A stretch of DNA of 64,000 nucleotides from Microbacterium sp. 67-17. Lineage in GTDB: Bacteria > Actinomycetota > Actinomycetes > Actinomycetales > Microbacteriaceae. Location of the stretch: assembly GCF_001898325.1 (NCBI RefSeq), contig NZ_MKTR01000006.1, forward strand, positions 128,468 through 192,467. The letters run 5' to 3'. The notes beneath the pieces are model-generated. The model had not been told where the DNA came from and ran no database searches. It saw nothing but the letters and a program-made list of their open reading frames with translations. Below are positions 52,853-59,085 of the stretch, in pieces (the first letter of the stretch is position 1; each line of letters opens with the position of its first letter). The position numbers and the translations under genes are program-made.

Positions 52853-53278
52853 TCATCCGTGACTGTCGACGGTGGCGATGCCGAGTTCGCTCCAGGCGTG
52901 CAACAACGCTTCGTCGCCGGAAACGGCAACGAAGTCATCGGATGCCGTTGCTACCGCACTTGCCGCATGAACGGCGTCGTATCCGCGCAGTGCCTGAGTG
53001 CGAGCGATCTTTGCGGCTTCGCGGATGATGAGCGGCGCAACGGCGATGCGCGCCACGCCGGCCCAGAGGGACTCGAACGCCGCGAGCGCGCGCTCGTGCG
53101 AGGCATCCGTCAGTCGATCGAGCCGGCGTGCCTGGGCGAGCGCCGCGTGCGCCTCGACGTATGCGAGGTCACTGGTGACGATGACAGCTGCGGCATCCCA
53201 CACGTCGCGACAGCGCGCTGTCGCCGGTTCGTGGATGACGAGGGGGATCAGTGCGGAGGTGTCGAAGTACGCGAGCAT
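52853..53278 (-). CDS. vapC: VapC-type PIN-domain toxin
   Basis: PIN ribonuclease of 141 residues. Conserved acidic residues are in MLAYFDTSALIPLVIHE (first Asp), SDLAYVEAHAAL (Glu), RGYDAVHAASAV (Asp) and AVSGDEALLHAW (last Asp), the complete four-acid site. It cuts RNA when not bound by its antitoxin, encoded 13 bases upstream on the same strand. Start ATG at 53278. Confidence 0.92.
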   Translation of the reverse strand: MLAYFDTSALIPLVIHEPATARCRDVWDAAAVIVTSDLAYVEAHAALAQARRLDRLTDASHERALAAFESLWAGVARIAVAPLIIREAAKIARTQALRGYDAVHAASAVATASDDFVAVSGDEALLHAWSELGIATVDSHG

Positions 53279-53291
53279 CGCTGTGCGGTGC

Positions 53292-53555
53292 TCAGCGGCG
53301 CTGGTCGGCCACGAGATCGCTCACGGTGCCGGATGCTTCGACCGGCTCGAGGAGTTCAGCACGCCCCGAGCGGGGGAGCGTTGCCAGCCCCGCCCGGACG
53401 AGGGCTTCGAGCCCGGACTCGACGCCGATGGGCACGATCATCGCGACGGGGCGCCCATGGTCGGTGACCGTCAGTTCCGTTCCGGCACGCACGTCGGCCA
53501 GGTGCCGACTGAGTCCGTCGCGCAGCTCCCGGATGCCGATTGTGGCGCGTTTCAT
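53292..53555 (-). CDS. VapB/Phd-type antitoxin
   Basis: Antitoxin of 87 residues with a Phd/YefM-like N-terminal DNA-binding fold (MKRATIGIRELRDGLSRHLA, DVRAGTELTVTDHGRPVAMI) and a flexible C-terminal toxin-binding tail ending SDLVADQRR. ATG at 53555 is preferred because the -10 hexamer TACACT ends six bases before it, as at the other antitoxin genes; an ATG six bases upstream is also in frame. Represses the operon with VapC. Confidence 0.9.
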   Translation of the reverse strand: MKRATIGIRELRDGLSRHLADVRAGTELTVTDHGRPVAMIVPIGVESGLEALVRAGLATLPRSGRAELLEPVEASGTVSDLVADQRR

Positions 53556-53559
53556 GAGC

Positions 53560-53591
53560 ATAGTGTAGCCACAATGCCCAGACCTGAGGTC
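53560..53591 (-). promoter_or_regulatory. VapBC promoter with -35-overlapping palindrome
   Basis: On the minus strand GCTACACTAT (53560-53569) contains the -10 hexamer TACACT, ending six bases before the ATG. GACCTGAGGTC at 53581-53591, five-base arms around one base, covers the -35 region and is a likely antitoxin-binding site. The ten-base GCTACACTAT recurs before the RelB-like gene. Confidence 0.55.
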
Positions 53592-53858: not shown

Positions 53859-54620
53859 ATGGTCTCGTCGAGCCACCCTCCGCCGCTGCCGGGTCGGCCG
53901 GTCATCGCCCAGCGCTGGTCGCGGGCAGTCTTCCTGCATTGGCGGGTGGATGCCGCGCGCCTGGAGCCGCTGCTGCCGCCGGGGGTGCGCCCGGATGTGT
54001 TCGACGGCTCGGGCTGGGTGGGTTTGGTTCCCTTTGTCCTCTCGCAGTTTCGGTTCTTGCCTGCCCCGCCGGTGCCCTTTCTCGGAACCTTCAACGAGAT
54101 CAACGTTCGCACCTACGGCATCGATGACGAGGGCCGGCGCGGCGTGGTGTTCCTGACGCTCGAGGCTGAGCATCTCATTCCCGTGCTGACGGCGCGCGCG
54201 CTGTTCGGTCTGCCGTATCGGTGGGCGAGCATCGGTCACCGCCTGGATGCCGAGGATGCCGAGGATGCCGCGACCATCGAGTACCGCTCCCGGCGCCGTC
54301 GAGTGGACGGTGCAGCGCGCGGCCCCGGCACGCGACTGCGCGTTCGCGTTGGCGAGGAGGTCGTGGATGACGAACTGTCGCGCTTCCTCACGGCGCGGTG
54401 GGGCTTTCACGAGCGTCACCTCGGCCGCACGATCTGGGCCGCCAATGCGCACGAGCCGTGGCCATTGCGGCGGGCGGAGTTGATCGGCATCCGTGACGGG
54501 CTTCTCGCTGATCGGGGATTCGCGGATCTCGCAGGGCGACGACCGGATTCGGTGCTGGCGATGCCGATGGACCACCCCGGCTTCGTCACGCAGTTCGCTG
54601 CTCCCGTACGCGTGCACTGA
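53859..54620 (+). CDS. YqjF-like DUF2071 family protein
   Basis: Protein of 253 residues. Family features: QRWSRAVFLHWRVDAARLEP, LLPPGVRPDVFDGSGWVGLV PF region, FNEINVRTYGIDDEGRRGVV and a late WTA-like AHEPWPLRRAEL segment. DUF2071 proteins are related to acetoacetate decarboxylase-like folds and have no settled function. Its start is near and divergent to the BRCT gene. Confidence 0.85.
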   Translation: MVSSSHPPPLPGRPVIAQRWSRAVFLHWRVDAARLEPLLPPGVRPDVFDGSGWVGLVPFVLSQFRFLPAPPVPFLGTFNEINVRTYGIDDEGRRGVVFLTLEAEHLIPVLTARALFGLPYRWASIGHRLDAEDAEDAATIEYRSRRRRVDGAARGPGTRLRVRVGEEVVDDELSRFLTARWGFHERHLGRTIWAANAHEPWPLRRAELIGIRDGLLADRGFADLAGRRPDSVLAMPMDHPGFVTQFAAPVRVH

Positions 54621-54693
54621 GACACGCCTCGAAGAACCCTCGACCCTGTCTCGATATCCCTCGGCGCCTGTCCACGCGACGTGGTTATTCGAC

Positions 54694-55346
54694 GAGCGCA
54701 GCACCTGATTACTCGGCGAGCACGGCGACTGCTTGCCAGCCGAGCGCAGCACGTGGTTACCGGCTGAGCACAGCGCCTGCTTATCGGAGGAGCGCAGCAG
54801 CTGGCTGCCCGGCGAGCACAGCAGTTGGCTACCGGCCGAGCGCTGCACCGGGTTACTCGGCGAGTGCAGCACCGGGTTGCTCGGCGAGTGCAGCACCGGG
54901 TTACTCGGCCGAGCGCTGCACCGGGTTACTCGGCAAGTGCAGCACCGGGTTACTCGGCCGAGCGCTGCACCGGGTTACTCGGCGAGTGCAGCGCCTGCTT
55001 ATCGGAGGAGCGCAGCAGCTGGCTGCCCGGCGAGCACAGCAGTTGGCTACCGGCCGAGCGCTCTACCGGGTTACTCGGCGAGTGCAGCGCCTGCTTATCG
55101 GAGGAGCGCAGCAGCTGGCTGCCCGGCGAGCACAGCAGTTGGCTACCGGCCGAGCGCTGTACCGGGTTACTCGGCGAGTGCAGCACCGGGTTGCTCGGCC
55201 GAGCGCTGCAGCGGGTTACTCGGCGAGTGCAGCACCGGGTTGCTCGGCCGAGCGCTGCAGCGGGTTACTCGGCGAGTGCAGCACCGGGTTGCTCGGCCGA
55301 GCGCTGCACCTGCTTACCGGCCGAGCGCTGCACGTGGCTACCCGAC
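54694..55346. repeat. 27-unit tandem array of a 24/25-bp repeat
   Basis: Twenty-seven contiguous units, 22 of 24 bases and five of 25, account exactly for the 653 bases. A typical unit is GAGTGCAGCACCGGGTTACT followed by CGGC. Each unit begins and ends with GAG/CTCGG so neighbours form CTCGG(C)CGAG dyads. Higher-order copies are evident: 54984-55079 and 55080-55175 (96 bases, one mismatch by eye), a diverged third copy at 54766-54861, and a 49-base pair repeated at 55176-55224 and 55225-55273. A degenerate unit lies at 54671-54693. No stop codons occur in several frames, but the 25-base units break every frame, so it is not coding. It fills the 717-base gap after the DUF2071 gene and its last unit overlaps the stop of the DUF222 gene. 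Confidence 0.95.
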
Positions 55347-56924
55347 GATCGCGCCATCGGACTGCCCAGCGTACGTCGCGGCTTCACCTTCCCTGGGTCT
55401 TCCCTCGCGCCAGGGTGGTCTGTCGGGCGGGGGCGGGGGATCCCACGCCCACGCCCACGGCGCCTTCGTCCGCAAAACCCTCGGGGTCGCCGGTTCGCCG
55501 CCGAGACCCACGTGCCCGAACGGTGGTACGAGAATGAACGCGCCGTGACCGTCGCGGATGATCTTCCATCCGTTGTTGTGGAGCTGCATGTGATGGAACC
55601 GGCAGAGCAGTACCCCGCGGTCGATGTCGGTTCGGCCATTGTCGGCGGCGACGTGGTCGATGTGGTGGGCCTCGCAGTACGACGCGGGCATGCGGCATCC
55701 TTCGGCGATGCATCCGCCGTCGCGAACGGCCAATGCGATCCGCTGCTTCGCCGTGAACAGGCGCTGTTCGTGTCCGACATCGAGCGGGTTGCCGCCACTG
55801 TCGACGGTGACGGTCACGGTTCCGTTCATGCAGATGTTGCGGTCGACGACTGACCCGGGGAGGGCATCCCCGCCGTCTTCGGCGTGTCCGGTCTTGATGA
55901 GCCGGCCGATCGGGTCCCGCGGCCCGCTCGCATCGCCAACCAGAACGATCCGAACCCCGGGTTGACGTGCCCCGAACACGTCGGGGGCGCTCGCGAGCGC
56001 CCCGGCACGAATGAGGTCGACGAACAGGTCGTACTCGAGCTGCTCGTTGCTGCGCGGGTCATCGGAGAGCTCTTTCGCTGCGGCGCGGTCGGCATCCGAG
56101 ATGAACCGGGGTCCACCGCGCCGGGGACGTAGCGCCGCGGCAAAGGCGGACCGCAGCCACAGCGCCATCTCGTCGTCGAAGATGATGTGGCCGTGGTGTT
56201 GTCCGTGTTGGTCGATCCACGTGCGTAGCGACCGCTTCTCGTACCGCGCCTGGAACCGATCTTCGGCGCCAACGGGGTCGAGAATGTCGCGCAACTGCCT
56301 CGCCCGAGCCCGCAACTCCTCAACGGATGCCCCGCCCACCGCCTCATCGACGAGGGTCTCGGCCGCAACCGACCACGCGAGAGCAGCGGATGCCGGATCC
56401 ACACCCTCCGCCGAAGGCTCGCCGAGCCCACCGCGGATCGCATCACTCTGAGCCGTCGTCAACCGGCCAGCCCAGAGTGCGGATTGCAGCGGAGCGTGCC
56501 ACGGCGCGCGGGTCGCGTCGGGGGAGTCGTCCGTCGCCGGTGCCGGCTCAGCGCCCGAGGCAGCACCCGCATCCGGCGCCGCACCATCAAGCAGCGACTG
56601 CCCGACACGCACTTGCCGCAGCGCGTCTGCGCGCGTTCCGCCGGTGATCGACTGCACCAGAGCAACGGGTGACGCGTGCCCCTGGGTGGCCGCGAGCCCC
56701 GAGTGCCCCTTCTCGCGCCTCGATCGCTGGGCGGCGACACCCGCAACCACGGACTGCAACCGTTCCGCATCGTTCGCGATGCCGGTGACCTCGCGCAACA
56801 CCTCCAACACGGATGCATCGCTGAGCGCCGCGGCGCCGGACGGGAGGCTCGAGGGCTCGACATCCAGCTCAGCGAAAACCGCGAGCCGGTCAAGCCGCTC
56901 GCGCATCGCCGTGAGGATGTTCAT
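55338..56924 (-). CDS. DUF222-HNH (13E12-type) protein
   Basis: Protein of 528 residues. The N-terminal two thirds are the helical DUF222 domain (TGIANDAERLQSVVAGVAAQ, LRQVRVGQSLLDGA, LWAGRLTTAQSDAIRGGLGE). The C-terminal HNH nuclease reads GCRMPASYCEAHHIDHVAAD then TDIDRGVLLCRFHHMQLHNN, with all expected His, Asn and Cys. The family is multi-copy in actinobacteria, including the REP13E12 elements of mycobacteria. A Pro/Trp-rich tail ends inside the tandem array. Function is unproven; mobility is suspected. Confidence 0.93.
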   Translation of the reverse strand: MNILTAMRERLDRLAVFAELDVEPSSLPSGAAALSDASVLEVLREVTGIANDAERLQSVVAGVAAQRSRREKGHSGLAATQGHASPVALVQSITGGTRADALRQVRVGQSLLDGAAPDAGAASGAEPAPATDDSPDATRAPWHAPLQSALWAGRLTTAQSDAIRGGLGEPSAEGVDPASAALAWSVAAETLVDEAVGGASVEELRARARQLRDILDPVGAEDRFQARYEKRSLRTWIDQHGQHHGHIIFDDEMALWLRSAFAAALRPRRGGPRFISDADRAAAKELSDDPRSNEQLEYDLFVDLIRAGALASAPDVFGARQPGVRIVLVGDASGPRDPIGRLIKTGHAEDGGDALPGSVVDRNICMNGTVTVTVDSGGNPLDVGHEQRLFTAKQRIALAVRDGGCIAEGCRMPASYCEAHHIDHVAADNGRTDIDRGVLLCRFHHMQLHNNGWKIIRDGHGAFILVPPFGHVGLGGEPATPRVLRTKAPWAWAWDPPPPPDRPPWREGRPREGEAATYAGQSDGAIVG

Positions 56925-57101
56925 ACGCTCACTCTCTCACCCACCTCCGACATTCATCGCGGGCCAGAACAGAACCAAAAACAGCCTGTGGACAGGTCAT
57001 TTCCTGAGTCGCCTGGGGAGGAACCGACGCCCGTGAACACACACGACCTAAGCTCGGACACCAGACCGAAATCGGCACACCCAGGCCCGGAAGGGAGTGG
57101 C

Positions 57102-57908
57102 ATGAACACCCCCACCCGCCCGCGCGCCGACGCACCGACAGGCACCCCACCCGTGCCGCGCGCTGACCTCACGGTCGCGGCCGCTGCCGTCATCCTCGCC
57201 GCGGTCGCCCTCGTCGCCTCGAGCCTGCAGTCGGGCTTTGCGCCTCTGATCACGCTCACCCTCACCCCACCCGGAATCGCCCCGGCCGACGGCGGAATGA
57301 TCATCGTCGTCACTCCCACGCCCGACCTCTTGCCCGGCATCCAGATGGGCGCAGCGATCGCGACGCTTCTGTTCTTCGTCGCCGGGATGCGCCTGCTGCT
57401 GCTCATCCCTGCCGTCCGCCGGCGTCACGCCACGGATGCCGCAGCCGATCGCCACACCTGGCGCTGGATCGAGTACTCGCAGCTGGCAGGTGTCGGCACC
57501 TTTCTCGTCGCGCAGCTGAACGGCATCACCGAGGTCACGAGTCTCGTGCCGATCTACGCGCTGGGCGCCGCCGGAGCGCTCTTCCTCATCGTCCACGACC
57601 ACCGCGCCGCGACCGGGCGCTTCGGTGGCCCCGCTTTCGCCCTCGGATCCGCGGTCGCGATCGTGCCGTGGGGTGTCATCGCCTTCGCGCAGATCACGAC
57701 CCTCCTCGCAGGCTTCGAGGTGTCGGCATCCGTTCGCGTCGTGACTCTGCTGATGCTGGCGGCTTCGGCATCCGTGTGGGTCGTGACCGGATGGCGCGCC
57801 CGCCGTGATCCCAAGCGAACAGACGGATGCCGCACCGACGCGCTCCTCGGCTGGGTCCTCCCTCTGGCGCCAGCCGCCCTCGTGCTCTCGACCGTGTGGG
57901 TGGGCTGA
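57102..57908 (+). CDS. Heliorhodopsin-family membrane protein without retinal lysine
   Basis: Seven-span protein of 268 residues. Heliorhodopsin marks: SLQSGFAPLITLTLTPPG after span one, WRWIEYSQLAGVGTFLVAQL followed by NGITEV in span three with the counterion-position Glu124, PAFALGSAVAIVPWGVIAFA in span five, and a final span GWVLPLAPAALVLSTVWVG. In heliorhodopsins the last span carries the retinal-binding Lys (SLxAKxxLxW); here that position is Ala and the whole protein has one Lys, in a loop (DPKRTDG). It should not form a Schiff base. ATG at 57102 has GGGAG upstream; an in-frame GTG at 57033 with GGAGG is an alternative. Confidence 0.78.
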   Translation: MNTPTRPRADAPTGTPPVPRADLTVAAAAVILAAVALVASSLQSGFAPLITLTLTPPGIAPADGGMIIVVTPTPDLLPGIQMGAAIATLLFFVAGMRLLLLIPAVRRRHATDAAADRHTWRWIEYSQLAGVGTFLVAQLNGITEVTSLVPIYALGAAGALFLIVHDHRAATGRFGGPAFALGSAVAIVPWGVIAFAQITTLLAGFEVSASVRVVTLLMLAASASVWVVTGWRARRDPKRTDGCRTDALLGWVLPLAPAALVLSTVWVG

Positions 57909-57933
57909 GGCGCTCCGGCCAGCCAGGCGCTGC

Positions 57934-57963
57934 TGTGTACACAATGACGCCAAGTGCTACACT
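57934..57963 (+). promoter_or_regulatory. RelBE-type operon promoter with palindrome
   Basis: TGTGTACACA (57934-57943) is a perfect palindrome over the -35 region. The -10 hexamer TACACT (57958-57963) ends six bases before the antitoxin ATG, inside GCTACACTAT (57956-57965), which is identical to the VapB promoter core. Confidence 0.55.
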
Positions 57964-57969
57964 ATCCGC

Positions 57970-58233
57970 ATGGAATCCGTCACCACTGAGGTCTCGACGC
58001 GAGAGCTGCGAAGTCAGCTTGCTGACGTGCTCGGACGCGCAATGTACGCGGGCGAGCGTATCGGAGTGACCCGCAACGGCAAGCTTGCGGCTGTGGTCGT
58101 GAGCGTGGCCGATCTGGAGGCTCTCGAAGCGTTCGAGATGGCCCAGGATGTTGCTGCCTACCGGCAGGCCAAGGCCGAGGATGATGGCACCCGCGTGACC
58201 CTCGATGAGTTGCGCGCCGACCTCGCGTCGTGA
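57970..58233 (+). CDS. Phd/YefM-type (RelB-like) antitoxin
   Basis: Antitoxin of 87 residues: VSTRELRSQLADVLGRAMYA then GERIGVTRNGKLAAVVVSVA form the Phd/YefM DNA-binding fold, and the acidic C-terminal tail (DDGTRVTLDELRADLAS) wraps the toxin. No Shine-Dalgarno; the -10 position suggests a leaderless mRNA. The toxin gene starts in its stop codon (GTGA at 58230-58233). Confidence 0.92.
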   Translation: MESVTTEVSTRELRSQLADVLGRAMYAGERIGVTRNGKLAAVVVSVADLEALEAFEMAQDVAAYRQAKAEDDGTRVTLDELRADLAS

Positions 58234-58490
58234 GCTACCGCGTAGAACTCACCACGTCGGCAGCGCGTCAGATTAAGAAGCTCCCGCGCCCGGCACGCGA
58301 TCGGGTGCTTGATGCAATCGCGCATCTGACCAGCGATCCCCGGCCCCATGGGGCTACGAAGCTCGCCGGGGAAGACACTGCCTGGCGGATTCGTGTCGGC
58401 GACTACCGGGTGATCTACGACGTGTTCGACAGTGAGCTGGTGGTCACGGTCGTTCGCGCCGGCCACCGCCGCGAGGTCTACGACCGATAG
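58230..58490 (+). CDS. relE: RelE/ParE-type toxin
   Basis: Toxin of 86 residues: YRVELTTSAARQIKKLPRPA, LTSDPRPHGATKLAGEDTAW, RIRVGDYRVIYDVFDSELVV and GHRREVYDR, the RelE fold with the basic and aromatic residues (Lys, Arg, Tyr) used for ribosome-dependent mRNA cleavage. Co-translated with the antitoxin. Its end is eight bases from the convergent MazF-like gene. Confidence 0.92.
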   Translation: MSYRVELTTSAARQIKKLPRPARDRVLDAIAHLTSDPRPHGATKLAGEDTAWRIRVGDYRVIYDVFDSELVVTVVRAGHRREVYDR

Positions 58491-58498
58491 CGAGTCCG

Positions 58499-58867
58499 TC
58501 ACAACGACAGGTGAAGCCGCAGGGCGTCATCGAGAGCGCCGAGCGATTCACCGGTCAGACGGCCAGTGACGCGGCTCACACGCGAAATCGACACCGCGCG
58601 CACCTGTTCGGCCTGGGCTTTGCTGGGCCAGGGGAGTCCCGATTCTTCCGGGGAGAGAAGCACCTGAAACGGATGCACCGTCGAGATGTTCGACGTCACT
58701 GGCACGACGGTGATCACCCCGTGTCCGGTGCGCGCAGCGCTGAGGTTTGCCGTCGCGTTGCTGACAACGATGGCCGGGCGAGTTCGCGCGGCTTCGGATC
58801 CGACGGCTGGATCGAGATCGACCAGCACGACGTGACCGCGTCGCAACGCGCGCACAGGATCTGTCAC
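58499..58867 (-). CDS. mazF: MazF/PemK-type endoribonuclease toxin
   Basis: Toxin of 122 residues: RRGHVVLVDLDPAVGSEAAR, TRPAIVVSNATANLSAARTG, HGVITVVPVTSNISTVHPFQ and KAQAEQVRAVSISRVSRVTG follow the MazF order (GxVxxVDLdP, RPxvVvs, tviPvT, dQvrtvd). It cleaves mRNA at short sequences. The start is the GTG at 58867, overlapping the antitoxin stop (GTGA), which excludes an earlier start. Confidence 0.92.
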   Translation of the reverse strand: MTDPVRALRRGHVVLVDLDPAVGSEAARTRPAIVVSNATANLSAARTGHGVITVVPVTSNISTVHPFQVLLSPEESGLPWPSKAQAEQVRAVSISRVSRVTGRLTGESLGALDDALRLHLSL

Positions 58868-59085
58868 GACCGCGCAAGTCCGTCGCCGGATGCCGCATCC
58901 CACGCGTCATCGGCGGGTTCGGCGAAGGCGTCGGCGTAGGCATCCGCGAGTCGTTCTTCGCGCAGCACCCGCACGGCGTCTTGCACCGCCGCGGACCGAC
59001 TGGAATAGACGCCGGTTCGAGTCTGGTCGTCGAGGAACGCGAGGTCATCGGTGCTGAGGCTCAGGCTGACTTTCACATGCACCAT
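58864..59085 (-). CDS. Ribbon-helix-helix antitoxin of the MazF-like toxin
   Basis: Antitoxin of 73 residues. The ribbon VHVKVSLSLSTDDLAFLDDQ and the helices TGVYSSRSAAVQDAVRVLRE are a ParD/MazE-type RHH DNA-binding domain; the acidic tail (AYADAFAEPADDAWDAASGD) binds the toxin. Coupled to the toxin gene by GTGA. The ATG follows TAGCAT by six bases. Confidence 0.9.
   Translation of the reverse strand: MVHVKVSLSLSTDDLAFLDDQTRTGVYSSRSAAVQDAVRVLREERLADAYADAFAEPADDAWDAASGDGLARS

Follow-up and report, generated by a model that had tools for sequence, protein, structure and literature searches.

A lysine-less and probably blind branch of the heliorhodopsin family in Microbacteriaceae

The window, a stretch of 64,000 nucleotides from Microbacterium sp. 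67-17 (G000), carries at 57102..57908 on the forward strand a coding sequence for a lysine-less heliorhodopsin (HeR) homologue, assigned by homology and by purifying selection. The ATG is at 57102, preceded by GGAAGGGAG, the stop codon ends at 57908, and the intact frame encodes 268 amino acids. Translation agreed with the reading frame, motifs and coordinates given in the initial annotation: RWIEYS (which contains E124), NGITEV and AIVPW were all found, and the last span reads GWVLPLAPAALVLSTVWVG. A scan for promoters and terminators from 56850 to 58050 found nothing (0.2 and 0.3 expected).

Seven helices were drawn for the protein by a first AlphaFold2 model of low confidence, and a simple hydropathy scan agreed with them, except that helix 3 was missed and the helix 5-6 region was split, with overlap. 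Counted from the N-terminus, the loops carry 3, 0, 2, 0, 1, 0, 3, and 0 Lys plus Arg residues (helix limits from the first, low-confidence model), which fits an N-terminus inside, as in HeRs. We infer an inverted topology with the N-terminus in the cytoplasm. Helix 7 (57834..57902, residues 245-267, forward strand) contains no lysine. The column of K241 in the HeR 48C12 falls on P254 (57861-57863) in the multiple alignments or on P257 in the profile comparison; the register is uncertain by three residues, and the helix is lysine-free in either register. The sole lysine, K238 (57813..57815), lies in the helix 6-7 loop, in accordance with the single loop lysine first described. On the same strand, E124 (57471..57473) is the equivalent of the helix-3 counterion glutamate (E107 of 48C12) in the alignment, N140 is encoded at 57519..57521, and P189-W190-G191 at 57666..57674.

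The gene is located between a DUF222 gene on the opposite strand and a Phd/ParE pair. A DUF2071 (PF09844) gene at 53859..54620, on the forward strand, is a possible partner. Between the DUF2071 and DUF222 genes there is a 24-bp tandem array (54682-55341; about 27 copies, 74% matches). Genes of toxin-antitoxin type occur around the gene at 52853-53561, 57970-58490, and 58499-58903 (PIN/Phd, Phd/ParE, PemK). The Phd/ParE pair has a whole match in genome G149, only part of the antitoxin in G279, and neither in G187 (M. schleiferi FXH-192).

Descent from heliorhodopsins and retention of their fold had been proposed from the sequence, and profile searches and structure prediction both placed the protein with HeRs. 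Pfam PF18761 matched residues 68-200 with 56.4 bits (E=3.7e-15), above its gathering cut-off of 26.7 bits, which places the protein within the family. The NCBIfam HeR model NF038020 also matched (E=7.4e-16), with 58.4 bits, below its equivalog cut-off of 100 bits. Searched singly, the window protein matched heliorhodopsins in the PDB, six distinct chains with E values from 3e-8 to 5e-6. A profile of the lineage described below (41 proteins, A2) matched the heliorhodopsin 9ljj_A at 9e-36 over profile positions 5-240 of 244, nearly end to end, and the canonical HeR profile with a probability of 99.9%. PF18761 matched 36 of the 41 lineage proteins at E<=0.01, and NF038020 matched all 41 at that same E-value threshold. 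The type-1 rhodopsin family PF01036 was not among the window protein's matches at E<=1, a search in which the HMMER filters drop most weak ones. A non-homologous membrane protein with chance motifs was rejected by the PF18761, PDB chain, and lineage-profile matches, and the homology to HeRs is far beyond chance.

The first AlphaFold2 model, based on five sequences, was too poor (pLDDT 46). A second one, to which two canonical HeRs from viral contigs were added, was of moderate confidence (pLDDT 62.9, pTM 0.61); its best ten Foldseek matches in the PDB were heliorhodopsins, eight of them at E<=0.001. The two canonical HeRs in its alignment may have helped to impose the HeR fold. As first supposed, the protein is predicted to keep the seven-helix HeR fold. 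First searches of viral contigs with the lineage profile and the canonical profile gave no match; the two distinct canonical HeRs used in the model came from later searches. Plasmids and phages searched with the window protein gave no match.

Loss of the Schiff-base lysine, claimed at first for this one protein, was found throughout the lineage: in the alignment, the helix-7 column held lysine in 0 of 39 divergent proteins, the window protein included, versus 30 of 30 canonical HeRs. A conserved alanine in its place had been thought possible. The column proved variable, with alanine in only 5 proteins and threonine (14) and proline (8) commoner; the others had L (3), V (2), S (2), G (2), F (2), and R (1). 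The arginine belongs to L071 (G431), and excerpts of Becker 2016 (PMC4915679) report the same residue at this column in haloarchaeal opsin-related proteins that belong to group A. All 50 canonical loci from the order and phylum samples had the SLxAK context; among further loci, 18 of 20 had the helix-7 lysine, and the remaining two were one fragment and one without a match. A frameshift or sequencing error, the initial annotation's own caveat, was looked for and ruled out, because G279 and G149, the nearest relatives with an intact gene, have a near-identical lysine-free last span and the lysine is absent from 39 of 39 proteins. Attachment of retinal to K238 is unlikely, since G149 has glutamate at that position and 30 of 41 lineage proteins have no lysine anywhere; the other 11 have one each, none in helix 7. 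Retinal binding appears to have been lost in the lineage.

The window gene is not the single oddity it had seemed; it belongs to a paralogous lineage found under 11 genus codes of Microbacteriaceae. The window protein matched 13 of 366 genomes of its genus, its own included, and the lineage profile, run on 198 genus genomes, matched three (G000, G084, and G206), with no carrier beyond those of the window-protein search. In the Microbacteriaceae sample, 80 of 398 genomes matched PF18761, and the scores fell into two groups, canonical (276.9-326 bits) and divergent (23-132 bits). By this split, 28 of the 398 genomes, in 11 genus codes, had a divergent HeR-like gene, and 3 of the 28 genes were under the PF18761 cut-off. 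One further match, in G459 with 129 bits, comes from a fragment at the end of a contig (L058) and was taken as canonical from its sequence. A canonical HeR was also present in 10 of the 28 carriers; 18 had no canonical match. In the 10 double carriers, the two kinds were more than 700 kb apart or on different contigs. Members of the lineage include Microbacterium sp. BWSM_13 and BWSM_6, M. schleiferi FXH-192 (a broken copy), Agromyces tardus SJ-23, and Labedella endophytica EGI 6500705.

PF18761 matched 25 of 347 genomes in the order sample, where all matches besides the window's own scored at least 299 bits, and 109 of 396 in the phylum sample, where, the window's own again aside, full-length matches scored at least 276.9 bits and the rest were partial. 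Full-length matches from these two samples whose loci were not fetched were classed by score alone (276.9 bits or more). Two of the partial phylum matches (G1293 and G1212) were fetched, and one of them was matched, as a fragment, by the canonical profile. The heliorhodopsin match at G1293:C1:1725526-1725901, from a different family of the phylum, is split in two and has an in-frame TAG. The lineage profile matched 16 of 198 order genomes: the window's, 14 that had scored as canonical before, and one weak partial match (20.9 bits, G908). By score, no full-length lysine-less member was found outside Microbacteriaceae in the 347 order and 396 phylum genomes, and within these samples the lineage is confined to that family.

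For the alignment, 28 proteins of the family sample were joined by 11 from the Microbacterium matches of the window-protein search, giving 39. L058 (G459, the fragment) and L087 were dropped before the counts, the latter because the frame of G187 is broken. The canonical rows were reduced from 98, among which the genes of G674 and G747 occurred twice, to 58 at 82% identity. In the tree of these 97 rows, which is unrooted, one branch of length 1.31 parted the 39 lysine-less from the 58 canonical proteins with an SH-aLRT of 100. A second tree with bootstraps, in which the four longest rows were omitted and the canonical rows thinned further, gave the same split (36 versus 38 proteins) at 100/100, and the canonical HeRs of Microbacteriaceae formed another group (98/92). 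The lysine-less proteins are one lineage. The longest end branch of the tree is L159 (G614), a second, very divergent heliorhodopsin that has the lysine (SLVSKSVLGW) and stands beside a normal copy. We speak of a duplicate of heliorhodopsin because the lineage occurs in one family and canonical HeRs are widespread in the phylum, with no root inferred; origin by duplication is the likely course of events.

Canonical columns are numbered here as in 48C12, and residues at least 95% identical among the 58 canonical proteins, which occupy 48 columns, are called HeR-invariant. H23, H80, E107, and K241 are residues with known roles in 48C12, and the 9ljj row has the same letters at these positions. 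At 34 of the 48 columns, the HeR-invariant residue was present in under half of the lineage. The changed columns include H23, H80, Y108, N138, E149, F206, F209, Q216, Y217, S237, and K241, and many lineage proteins have gaps around 215-226. The conserved retinal pocket and the other HeR-invariant residues are not kept as a set in the window protein, which retains 15 of the 48, including R104, W105, E107, and Y108 (48C12 numbers). The counterion glutamate singled out at first is indeed kept in this protein as E124; across the lineage the position holds E in 25 of 39 proteins, G in 7, D in 4, and A in 3, and it is no mark of the lineage.

The lineage has 13 columns of its own that are at least 95% identical among its 39 proteins. 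Y152, G191, and T215 (window numbers) occur in 39 of 39 lineage and 0 of 58 canonical proteins each, and N140 in 39 of 39 versus 8 of 58. L219 and R235 are also conserved in the lineage, and are found in 1 and 30 of the 58 canonical proteins; G141, P189, and W190 are lineage-conserved and common to canonical HeRs. Q197 is glutamine in 35 of the 39 proteins and glutamate in 4. The conserved marks of the lineage are a new residue set, invisible from one sequence. The first-model helix limits and the charge pattern predict that N140, Y152, Q197, and T215 belong to the extracellular half of the protein and that W231 and R235 are at the cytoplasmic end of helix 6. The loss of HeR-invariant residues, together with the gain of invariant residues of its own, suggests that the lineage changed its function and did not simply decay.

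Comparison of lineage pairs gave dN/dS values of 0.13-0.43 in 22 of 23 pairs. The window gene gave 0.18 against G279 and 0.17 or 0.21, by the stretch compared, against G149. The remaining pair, G088-G087, gave 0.84 on 18 changes. Canonical pairs with dS under 0.9 ranged from 0.03 to 0.47, many of them below the lineage values. Intact lysine-less frames numbered 39, from 39 genomes and 11 genus codes; in M. schleiferi FXH-192 (L023/L087), a 7-nt deletion near the IVPW motif breaks the frame in this assembly. The lineage is under purifying selection. The light-independent relative suggested at the outset is probable, and the lineage is probably used for something other than light sensing.

A search for retinal genes elsewhere in the genome had been advised. 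Profile searches found no BCD, RPE65 dioxygenase, or Bac_rhodopsin match in the window genome and no second heliorhodopsin, with one PF18761 match in all; G279, G149, and G187 likewise had no BCD, RPE65, or Bac_rhodopsin match. The same searches were positive elsewhere (BCD in 21 of 57 genomes, RPE65 in 8 of 18, Bac_rhodopsin in 9 of 18). Outside Microbacterium, 12 of 17 genomes whose sole HeR is the lysine-less kind had BCD; it was also present in 6 of 10 with both kinds of HeR, and in 3 of 17 with a canonical HeR only, one of the three below the cut-off. Among the 13 Microbacterium carriers of the lysine-less gene, 8 had RPE65. Retinal-forming genes are, because of these counts, no mark of the lineage. 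Their absence as proof of lineage-wide retinal loss was rejected as a test, as BCD was present in only 3 of the 17 canonical-only genomes.

At 21 representative loci, where neighbours were called by a GC-position rule, 42 nearest neighbours were listed and 31 scanned with Pfam, and these were diverse. No widely common gene partner was found, and neighbour clusters were mostly within a genus. In G369 (L084 3457-7048), two GAF-ANTAR genes upstream and, some 140 nt downstream, a HATPase_c gene share one strand with the lysine-less gene in an operon-like arrangement, and the nearer GAF-ANTAR gene overlaps it by 4 nt on the start chosen. A LuxR-type regulator lies 36 nt upstream of the gene in G727. 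The other scanned neighbours were enzymes, transporters, and unknowns. The case for a signalling role comes from these two genomes, because no neighbour is widely common.

On balance, we consider it probable that the gene descends from an early heliorhodopsin duplicate in Microbacteriaceae that lost retinal and was selected for a light-independent task, most likely as a membrane sensor or regulator. The duplicate would have lost the helix-7 lysine and much of the binding pocket while retaining the inverted seven-helix fold, and selection would then have kept the paralogue for the different task. N140, Y152, G191, T215, and Q197 (in 35 of 39 proteins), most of them predicted for the extracellular half, may make up a site that binds a small ligand or a partner helix. 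A change at this site might be relayed to W231 and R235, where helix 6 ends on the cytoplasmic side, and from there to a cytoplasmic partner. It is possible, though we put it forward tentatively, that the proteins are retinal-free, inverted seven-helix chemical receptors, in which a small molecule or lipid would be bound by the polar residues N140, Y152, Q197, and T215 of the extracellular half, and binding would trigger an output in the cytoplasm. In animals, opsins and other G protein-coupled receptors are related, and the chemical-receptor reading draws on this likeness.

Other explanations have to be weighed against selection for a light-independent task. Once retinal was lost, the paralogues might simply drift, each a residual hydrophobic scaffold on its way to loss. 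Long branches in both trees, patchy presence (13/366, 3/198, and 28/398 genomes), the deletion in M. schleiferi FXH-192, the lack of a widely common neighbour among lineage loci, and the G088-G087 value of 0.84 all agree with such decay, and fast evolution together with the patchy presence (13/366; 28/398) could mean weak constraint. We nevertheless regard decay as unlikely: the other 22 pairs lie inside the canonical dN/dS range (many canonical values being lower), several of the 13 conserved columns are nearly or wholly missing from canonical HeRs, and the 39 frames are intact across 39 genomes and 11 genus codes.

Two further explanations give the protein a role through its partners, and both seem to us improbable. 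HeRs form dimers, and the lysine-less protein might pair as a subunit with a canonical HeR or a type-1 rhodopsin and tune that retinal-bearing partner; both HeR kinds are present in 10 of 28 family-sample carriers, and 4 of 13 Microbacterium carriers of the lysine-less gene have a type-1 rhodopsin. Pairing and tuning of this sort are speculated for lysine-less type-1 rhodopsins in passages of PMC10308929. However, 18 of the 28 carriers have no canonical match, no match to a type-1 rhodopsin or to a second HeR was found in the window genome, and in the double carriers the genes are far apart or on different contigs, as given above. Alternatively, the protein could be a scaffold that senses nothing itself and binds a cytoplasmic enzyme, which in the window sub-clade would be the DUF2071 protein. 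The DUF2071 gene is on the same strand within 3 kb at all six sub-clade loci, and in G088 and G087 it follows directly downstream, its start only a few nucleotides beyond the end of the lysine-less gene; canonical HeRs are reported, in excerpts of PMC9529153, to bind and regulate glutamine synthetase. Against this, the window DUF2071 protein had no match in the other 36 of the 41 loci searched, and the gene order differs: in the window, DUF2071 is upstream with the DUF222 gene between, versus downstream in G088.

Among known systems, the HeR family itself (type-3 rhodopsins; PF18761, NF038020; 48C12, TaHeR) is alike in its near full-length profile homology, seven helices, and predicted fold, in the PW motif and the N-inside charge pattern, and in RWxE of the window protein. 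It differs in that the lineage is without the helix-7 lysine, has most HeR-invariant residues changed and invariant ones of its own, and in that the window protein is below the NCBIfam HeR cut-off. The type-1 opsin-related proteins without the Schiff-base lysine, as portrayed in the excerpts of Becker 2016 (PMC4915679), also lost the lysine and were kept over time as diversified groups, with non-light sensing proposed for them; they are, however, of a type-1 lineage, mainly from haloarchaea and fungi, whereas HeRs have inverted topology. According to passages of PMC10308929, Rh-noK and the FArhodopsins are paralogues of retinal rhodopsins; Rh-noK and the freshwater FArhodopsins have no lysine and stand beside a canonical copy, but they belong to xanthorhodopsin/proteorhodopsin lineages, and the FArhodopsins have a flotillin context. 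For HeRs, glutamine synthetase (PMC9529153), a photolyase (PMC9769723), and an ABC transporter (PMC11109279) are named as protein partners in the excerpts available, which suggests protein binding or modulation as a way in which the HeR fold can act; those HeRs bind retinal, in contrast to the lysine-less lineage, which is unable to form a Schiff base in helix 7.

No described lysine-less heliorhodopsin was found in full-text literature searches with incomplete coverage of the key HeR papers, in agreement with the initial annotation, whose author knew of none. The excerpts of PMC8612252, PMC9529153, PMC9448325, PMC11109279, PMC8591293, PMC10308929, and PMC4915679 contain lysine-less type-1 opsins, but no lysine-less HeR.

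The observation is confirmed and extends beyond the one gene first described, to a whole branch of heliorhodopsin relatives that lack the lysine and are probably blind. Its members are heliorhodopsins by descent and stand outside them if retinal attachment is the defining feature. A Pfam 'Heliorhodopsin' match in Microbacteriaceae is alone no indication of light sensing, because 18 of the 80 matching family-sample genomes have the lysine-less kind only. The proposals for HeR function in the literature examined assume light. A selected lineage that is seemingly rid of retinal and has kept the fold separates the role of the scaffold from the role of light, and its own conserved residues indicate where in the fold a function other than light sensing may reside.
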